Assembly: GCA_003194525.1 (NCBI GenBank)
Contig: NBIV01000006.1
Location: 372,001 to 436,000, forward strand
Origin: Gracilariopsis chorda
Lineage: Eukaryota > Rhodophyta > Florideophyceae > Gracilariales > Gracilariaceae
DNA length: 64,000 nucleotides
Reading direction: 5' to 3'
A model generated the notes under the pieces. It searched no databases, was not told where the DNA came from, and saw only the letters and a list, made by a program, of their open reading frames with translations. A program made the translations under genes and the position numbers. Shown one piece after another: positions 20,873 to 39,203 of the stretch. Numbering within the stretch: position 1 is the first letter of the stretch; each line of letters begins with the position of its first letter.

Positions 20873-21669
20873 TCTGAACTACAAATGCAGAAATCATGAG
20901 CTTTCATCTTGACACTCTGCTTTGGTAACACTGTGAAGACTCTAAATCCATTTGCAGCAGCCTACCATCCGTCCATAGCCGCATTACTATATCCATTTCA
21001 TGTCGACTGTGTCCAAAGAGAATGGAAAAAGCAAATTGCATTGATGGCTCAGGTCATAGAAGCCGTGGTTCGCTACAGTACATGCATCAGACTACTAGCT
21101 AGACCCCAGTCCTCTTTTCAAAATCTGCGCTTCACGATCCATCCGCATGCTGGACTATAGAACCCGTACAAATTTTGCTTGGGTAGGAGGGTTAGCAGCC
21201 GTACGGACCGTACGGTACAGTTTCTTTTGGTCATGATAGTTCGCTTAAATCATACCGTGCTACCCTTGGTAGCTGTGCTCGTCTGTCCGACATGATGCTC
21301 AGCGGGTCAATGGTAGCAACGCGATAGGCGCTTGTCTCAAAGTCTAGGTTCGAAGTAGAGCACAAAGTGAGAAACATGTAGACATGGACACGAATAATCC
21401 AATAGCACTGACGAACAAGGGGATGGCGGTTTCTGCAACTATGTCTACTGGAGGTCTAAAGCAGAATCACCTGCGTCACTAGTATGTTATTTAACCGGAT
21501 AATCAAACTCCGTACCTGTATGTTATGTGGCACATGCTTTTGAATAGTATGGTCTCCATAAAAAAGTCAACTCTCAGTCAGTCTCATTTTTGAAGATTCA
21601 TTTCCCTCTGCTGTTGCACTGCTTTAAAAAACAGTGCAACAAAAGGCCGCGGAGACCGCGTTGTTGCGA
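20873..21669. other. No gene recognised
   Basis: Contains a tRNA-like string at about 21290-21360 that does not fold (see the rejected list). Otherwise featureless. Just downstream of the tRNA on the minus strand, T-runs in the complement of 21601-21650 could end Pol III transcription. Confidence 0.4.
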
Positions 21670-21757
21670 TGGATCTGCCGGGCCAATCGTGCACAGCATT
21701 CGATCCCGGTACCTCTCCCATGCTAAGGGAGCACTCTACCAATTGAGCTACAGACCC
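21670..21757 (-). tRNA. tRNA-Ala(AGC) with about 15 extra nucleotides in the T loop
   Basis: Read on the minus strand, the acceptor arm is GGGTCTG/CAGATCC and includes G3-U70, the identity base pair of alanine tRNAs. The D arm is GCTC/GAGT with box A TAGCTCAATTGG. The anticodon arm is CTCCC-TTAGCAT-GGGAG, giving anticodon AGC. The variable loop is AGGTA and the T stem CCGGG/CCCGG. All stems pair. The T loop, however, starts ATCGA as in plant tRNA-Ala but spans 22 bases instead of 7. The gene is therefore 88 nt, 15 more than the usual 73. An intron in the T loop is the best explanation; a damaged tRNA copy is the alternative. T-runs downstream could terminate Pol III. Confidence 0.78.
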
Positions 21758-38691: not shown

Positions 38692-39203
38692 CTGAGTGCA
38701 ATTGTTCAAATAAAATAAATGACCAATTTTTTGAGCAGTGCCACATATGGTTGAACTTGTTCATGCGCCCGAGCTCCGAATACCGGCCAGGAGACACCAA
38801 AGAGGGCGTTTTCCAGAGAGTTCAAATCCGTATTCAGATTCGTTCTGCGATGCCTAGAAGCCGAGATACGGGCAATTCTTCGTTTCGGCCACTTTTTCGG
38901 CTTGCAAACCGGTTTCAAAAAATCTGAACAATTCCGGGGCGGATTATTTGATACTGTCTCGCGCGCCGTGGCAAAGCCTTTCGCGCTATAAGCGTCTATG
39001 CTTTCCAGGTGTCACACCAGGTTAGCTTCTCAAGGGGTGGATCTTTAGCATTGTTGACGCCGTTTCGGGGCTTGTGGTTCAACCGCCGTGTCATTGCTGC
39101 TGTGCGCCACGTCCCGATGTGACGCAGTACCGCCTTGGGTTTCAAAGTATGAGCTTTGGTACCTTCTGCCTACTCTGTTGAGTCAGAGCGACACGAGAAT
39201 GAT
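38692..39203. other. Element B spacer between antisense ORF and pol
   Basis: About 500 bp between the two convergent coding regions. No gene is recognised; it would hold the ends of both transcripts. Confidence 0.5.

Follow-up and report, generated by a model that had tools for sequence, protein, structure and literature searches.

A probable bulge-helix-bulge intron in the T loop of a tRNA-Ala(AGC) gene in the nuclear genome of Gracilariopsis chorda, a red seaweed

The stretch of 64 kb analysed here (the window) carries a tRNA-Ala(AGC) gene on its minus strand, at 21757-21670, whose T loop is interrupted by an insert of 15 nt. With a probability of roughly nine in ten, this is a live nuclear gene with a bulge-helix-bulge (BHB) type intron between tRNA positions 59 and 60 that would be excised by the tRNA-splicing endonuclease. 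Introns of this kind were previously described chiefly in archaea and in one unicellular red alga, and the sequence evidence indicates that the intron in Gracilariopsis is very probably real and spliced. The earlier note had supposed a florideophyte host. This was confirmed by the splicing endonuclease subunit Sen2, which was 100% identical over 182 residues to a protein of Gracilariopsis chorda, a match covering the whole database record and 55% of the query; identity was 62% to a protein of Agarophyton chilense and 58% to one of Gracilaria domingensis.

Reading the sequence directly, we found all four cloverleaf stems paired, as the earlier note had stated. They are an acceptor stem of 7 bp, fully paired and including the alanine identity pair G3-U70, a D stem of 4 bp, an anticodon stem of 5 bp presenting AGC, and a T stem of 5 bp which closes a loop of 22 nt. 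The discriminator base is A73, and CCA is not encoded by the gene. The interruption of the T loop, previously estimated at about 15 nt, proved by comparison with unsplit paralogues to be exactly 15 nt long and to separate positions 59 and 60, a site different from the canonical intron site one base 3' of the anticodon (37/38). The small stem ATCG/CGAT was also recognized earlier and does pair, but not within the insert where it had been placed: ATCG belongs to the exon (positions 54-57) and CGAT to the intron, and their pairing therefore makes up the middle helix of a bulge-helix-bulge. Similarly, the internal B box (52-62) is interrupted as claimed, but only after its eighth base, which leaves 52-59 contiguous and displaces 60-62. 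The features of the locus and the related genes are listed in Table 1.

Table 1. Features of the split tRNA-Ala(AGC) gene (window coordinates) and related tRNA genes elsewhere in the genome (contig handles). A slash within a motif marks the predicted splice site.
Feature	Position	Strand	Remarks
Exon 1, tRNA positions 1-59	21699..21757	-	Acceptor 5' strand, D arm, anticodon arm, variable loop, T-stem 5' strand, T loop to A59; same in three split copies
Intron, 15 nt, TGCTGTGCACGATTG, between 59 and 60	21684..21698	-	Missing in two unsplit paralogues
Exon 2, tRNA positions 60-73	21670..21683	-	G60, T-stem 3' strand, acceptor 3' strand, discriminator A
BHB central helix, exon strand ATCG (54-57)	21701..21704	-	
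BHB central helix, intron strand CGAT	21686..21689	-	
5' bulge AA/T, 5' splice site after A59	21698..21700	-	Predicted from strict BHB geometry
3' bulge TG/G, 3' splice site before G60	21683..21685	-	Predicted from strict BHB geometry
First TTTT downstream	21641..21644	-	Likely RNA polymerase III terminator
T6 run after first TTTT	21626-21631	-	
Split Ala(AGC) paralogue	C132:46946		15-nt insert
Split Ala(AGC) paralogue	C285:86573		17-nt insert
Unsplit Ala(AGC) gene	G000:C6:444817		
Unsplit Ala(AGC) gene	C24:49416		
Split Ala(UGC) gene	C141		13-nt D-loop insert, 20/21
Split Lys(UUU) gene	C41 (L036 or L053)		15-nt D-loop insert, 20/21
Split Lys(UUU) gene	C13 (L036 or L053)		14-nt D-loop insert, 20/21
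Split Tyr(GUA) genes	C117, C504 (L079, L080)		13-nt D-loop insert each, 20/21, plus ordinary 37/38 intron

The gene with its flanks (146 bases) was used as a BLAST query against the whole genome (91.3 Mb, 1081 contigs) at E values up to 10. All five genomic matches were Ala(AGC) genes, three of them split at 59/60 and two unsplit. The uninterrupted Ala(AGC) gene envisaged in the earlier note thus exists in two copies (C6:444817 and C24:49416). As determined by a script, the joined exons of the three split copies are identical to each other and, over 73 of 73 nt, to the insert-free gene on C6, while the gene on C24 differs from them in the anticodon stem. In contrast, the inserts of the window gene and the C132 copy differ at 5 of 15 sites, compared with none of 73 in the exons (Fisher p = 7.7e-5). 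This pattern, seen in three copies with the same exons, is that of purifying selection which acts on the exons and is absent on the insert, although the exon identity among the split copies may instead reflect gene conversion. The BLAST alignments end within 3 nt of the gene borders, so the copies are not fresh segmental duplicates. One exact-pattern scan for the Ala sequence in each of the genome_contigs and viral_contigs sets gave no match.

As two unsplit Ala(AGC) genes exist, the window gene is not required, and it might be a dead copy, a tRNA pseudogene which kept a 15-nt insertion by chance. Of what the earlier note had named as marks of a dead copy, only half was encountered, namely the ordinary genes that make this one dispensable. 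Eukaryotic D-/T-arm insertions have also been described as affecting, for the most part, a single gene among many synonymous ones and as supposed pseudogenes (PMC4090602). However, decay would be expected to hit the exons too, whereas the three copies share the insertion site and identical exons and have diverged in their inserts; together with the geometry shared by other split tRNA genes, among them the only Lys(UUU) genes found (see below), this renders a pseudogene improbable. The case for splicing of an intron in Ala(AGC) is comparative only, given that unsplit genes exist.

In a strict BHB, four base pairs lie between two bulges of 3 nt each (PMC4033280), and exactly this arrangement is present at the predicted splice sites of the window gene. 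The corresponding register, in which the exon's bases at -6 to -3, counted upstream from the 5' splice site, pair with the intron's bases at -6 to -3, counted upstream from the 3' splice site, was applied to the eight introns at ectopic positions found in the genome, belonging to four tRNA species. With G-U pairs allowed, 31 of the 32 base pairs form. The eight do not all count as independent, as the introns within Ala(AGC), within Lys and within Tyr may share ancestry, and for C13, C117 and C504, in which the junction can be moved by one base, the BHB-giving junction was chosen. The central helix pairs at 4/4 positions in the window gene and at 3/4 in the C285 copy. Among 48 registers scanned this one was the best; the next two (27 and 24 pairs) lie on the same diagonal and represent the helix shifted by one pair, and none off that diagonal exceeded 21. 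Shuffling the intron letters never reached 31 pairs in 20,000 trials (maximum 26). In addition, the intron strand covaries with the exon strand: ATCG is matched by CGAT or, with one mismatch in C285, by CGAA, AGTG by CGCT, and GTTG by CGAT, CAAT or CAAC. The free minimum calculated by RNAfold shows a shifted register for the window pre-tRNA and no T arm for that of C285.

A second alternative is that the insert is retained and the tRNA functions with a T loop of 22 nt. Outside the T loop the cloverleaf is undamaged, which would permit this without being direct evidence for it. In normal elongator tRNAs, however, T loop and D loop dock with each other, and the inserts diverge yet preserve the strand that pairs with the exon, making retention very unlikely. 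If the intron is spliced, as we favour, RNA polymerase III would transcribe the 88-nt body of the gene, and the T stem together with the pairing of exon ATCG (54-57) and intron CGAT would form the bulge-helix-bulge. The tRNA-splicing endonuclease, with Sen2 and Sen34 as catalytic subunits, would then cleave within the two 3-nt bulges, AA/U and UG/G, and a ligase, probably RtcB, would join the exons to a normal 73-nt tRNA.

The proposed splicing enzymes are encoded in the genome. Sen34 (C128) and Sen2 (C296) both match PF01974 and the human subunits in PDB, and Sen54 matches PF12928 and human Sen54; RtcB was detected with 506.6 bits over positions 1-394 of 426, plus a weak second piece. In Sen2, the residues Y245, H254 and K291, which we take to be the catalytic Tyr, His and Lys with roles as in human Sen2, are invariant across all 37 sequences of the alignment. 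The AlphaFold model of Sen2 (mean pLDDT 74.5, pTM 0.61) has human TSEN2 as its best fold match, followed by archaeal endonucleases. The N-terminus of Sen2 (L072:853-1839, G000:C296) scored 19.7 bits against the SAP domain, below the cut-off of 23.9. At E values up to 0.01, SAP was matched in 23 of the 37 aligned Sen2 sequences, the alga's own included, with 31 of the 37 covering this stretch. Residues 31-60 are modelled with high confidence, and the SAP structure 1zrj occurred among the fold matches (probability 0.98, at a non-significant E value of 0.84). The N-terminus looks SAP-like, which may point to a red-algal SAP-Sen2 architecture; a role of this region in splicing specificity would be speculation.

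Altogether eight ectopic introns were found, three at 59/60 and five in the D loop at 20/21, so that several tRNA species carry D- or T-arm introns and two Tyr genes carry two introns each. The split genes on C141, C41 and C13 were identified among 61 tRNAs obtained with the Rfam model RF00005 (E up to 0.001) and read with ARAGORN and by eye. A DNA pattern for split D loops, restricted to D arms of the GCTC/GAGC type with an insert of 7-16 nt, gave five matches, namely the two Lys(UUU) genes, two Tyr(GUA) genes and one site on C341 (L081), which was dropped since no tRNA is present there; the same pattern read backwards as a control gave one match. The resulting count of 72 tRNA genes (the 61 plus four Ala, four initiator Met and three Tyr genes), eight of them with ectopic introns, represents lower bounds in both numbers, as the Rfam search had missed the four initiator Met genes as well as an ordinary Ala gene. 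When known tRNAs were concatenated into one query, only 40 of 65 candidates were scored; the 41 matches all fell on places of the 61-gene list, none with an ectopic intron, and were therefore uninformative. Missing isotypes were considered as proof of gene disruption and rejected: initiator Met was absent from the 61-gene list, yet four ordinary genes for it were found by DNA search, and absence from the Rfam list therefore means nothing.

The split genes amount to 3/5 for Ala(AGC), 1/2 for Ala(UGC), 2/2 for Lys(UUU) and, counting D-loop introns, 2/3 for Tyr. That Tyr exists solely with D-loop introns was refuted by a third gene on C119 with the 37/38 intron only, and Ala(UGC) likewise has a copy without a D-loop intron. 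Also a 35-nt piece of the tRNA-Tyr 3' end was noticed on C341 (L084:209-243, G000:C341:55858-55892) with no tRNA 5' half nearby. It was set aside as a fragment; alternatively, it may be the trace of a retroelement primer site.

For Lys(UUU), no unsplit gene was found in the genome; the other three matches of the DNA search were Lys(CUU) genes. An unsplit Lys(UUU) gene that is divergent or unassembled may exist. AAA codons require Lys(UUU) and, by established decoding rules, are not expected to be read by Lys(CUU); three stop-to-stop reading frames in the window contain 49 AAA codons (6, 36 and 7). Because both Lys(UUU) genes found are split, the D-loop introns are most likely removed. These split-only genes make a requirement for ectopic splicing testable in a seaweed.

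The remaining explanations are hardly credible. A mobile tRNA-derived repeat (SINE head) with an insertion would account for its occurrence at three dispersed places, but the exons are identical among the split copies, the flanks extend similarity by no more than 3 nt, and the search at E values up to 10 gave five genomic matches only, a number to be read with the reservation that a very abundant repeat could be hidden since common words are skipped. A sequencing or assembly error, conceivable in a draft assembly of 1081 contigs, would not be expected to produce at random eight ectopic inserts of one geometry on eight contigs. By contrast, a spliced T-loop intron in a florideophyte, proposed in the earlier note as an extension of what is known from Cyanidioschyzon merolae, agrees with the three copies, whose exons are the same and whose inserts at a shared site have diverged, with the same strict BHB in eight introns of four tRNA species, and with the split state of the sole Lys(UUU) genes found. 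The novelty suggested along with it is smaller, since introns in the D and T regions have reportedly already been validated in Chondrus crispus.

The ectopic tRNA introns of C. merolae were reportedly described by Soma et al. in 2007 and 2013. Nuclear tRNA genes of this alga contain short D- and T-arm introns with BHB junctions, sometimes several per gene, and it possesses Sen2, Sen34 and Sen54 (PMC3978253, PMC4090602, PMC9602550). In that alga, the permuted genes for Ala(UGC), Arg(CCU) and Lys(UUU) make use of the 59/60 junction, which is a permutation junction also in archaea (PMC3978253, PMC4090602). Gracilariopsis resembles C. merolae in having D/T-arm introns with BHB motifs and genes for the three subunits Sen2, Sen34 and Sen54. 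It differs in being a seaweed with a 91 Mb genome and in showing, among the introns found, two ectopic sites only (20/21 and 59/60). Taken together with C. merolae, this suggests that red algae more broadly, and not one extremophile alone, possess BHB introns at sites other than the anticodon loop. PlantRNA 2.0 (Cognat et al. 2022) is said to contain experimentally validated non-canonical splice sites in the D or T regions of tRNAs of Chondrus crispus. Chondrus belongs to the Gigartinales and Gracilariopsis to the Gracilariales; the two florideophytes would thus share non-canonical D/T-region introns across different orders. For Chondrus, 30 of 120 tRNA genes in PlantRNA are given with introns but without intron positions (PMC9126412).

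Archaeal tRNA introns, as described for Thermoproteales and others, have a BHB with a 4-bp helix between two 3-nt bulges and occur at several sites (PMC4033280). The introns of Gracilariopsis match them in this helix, the two bulges and the non-canonical sites, and differ by the eukaryotic host, the Sen2/Sen34/Sen54 enzyme and the absence of an encoded CCA from the Gracilariopsis gene. Nucleomorph tRNA introns of Guillardia theta were reportedly treated by Kawach et al. in 2005. Located ectopically in the D and T arms, they measure 3-24 nt and their excision was confirmed by RT-PCR (PMC4090602), and many are described as lacking a defined BHB (PMC3978253). The D-/T-arm introns of Gracilariopsis are likewise ectopic but have a strict BHB. 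Within the openly licensed literature, no report of ectopic tRNA introns in Gracilariales was among the matches listed. A still broader view, in which red algae overall retain archaeal-style tRNA splicing, a SAP-Sen2 endonuclease reads BHBs anywhere and AAA decoding is wholly dependent on it here, appears rather doubtful when all parts are taken jointly.

A TTTT run as expected of a Pol III terminator follows 25 nt downstream of the gene, and 57 of the 62 tRNA genes examined have TTTT within 60 nt downstream as counted by a script. The five misses include the three Tyr genes, which were missed only because the query for them was truncated; judged by eye, T runs follow these genes too. The A box is located at 8-19 and the B box at 52-62 (PMC3978253); introns at 20/21 hence adjoin the 3' end of the A box. 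TATA-like words starting at -45 to -20 precede 11 of 62 tRNA genes. In background windows their frequency is about 1.1%, a difference that hints at Pol III elements upstream of the genes. The 11 include the two Lys(UUU) genes and the split copy of Ala(UGC); all three split Ala(AGC) genes and all three Tyr genes lack such words.

Standard gene finders miss or underscore tRNA genes split in the D or T arm. ARAGORN reported no tRNA in the whole 64 kb window and none at any of the three split Ala(AGC) loci. The Rfam tRNA model, run on window positions 10000-40000, gave 24.9 bits for the gene with the T arm skipped, below the gathering score of 29; the C132 copy was also below (24.9) and the C285 copy just above (30.4). 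The Tyr genes on C117 and C504 gave no Rfam tRNA match at E values up to 1. A covariance model tolerating a T-loop insert, the check proposed earlier, recognized the gene with 88.9 bits and the two split paralogues with 89.6 and 82.6 bits, scores that are high by construction, as the three split genes were themselves among the 23 sequences from which the model, with a neutral 15-nt T-loop insert, was built. As finders miss such genes, the tRNA sets of red seaweeds may be under-annotated.

Two further observations were made by eye. Between positions 39000 and 61000 of the window, several long reading frames resemble polyproteins of Gypsy-type LTR retrotransposons. Elsewhere in the genome, a Cys(GCA) gene (L029, G000:C19:33892) is AU-rich and organellar in appearance, and perhaps marks an insertion of organelle DNA.
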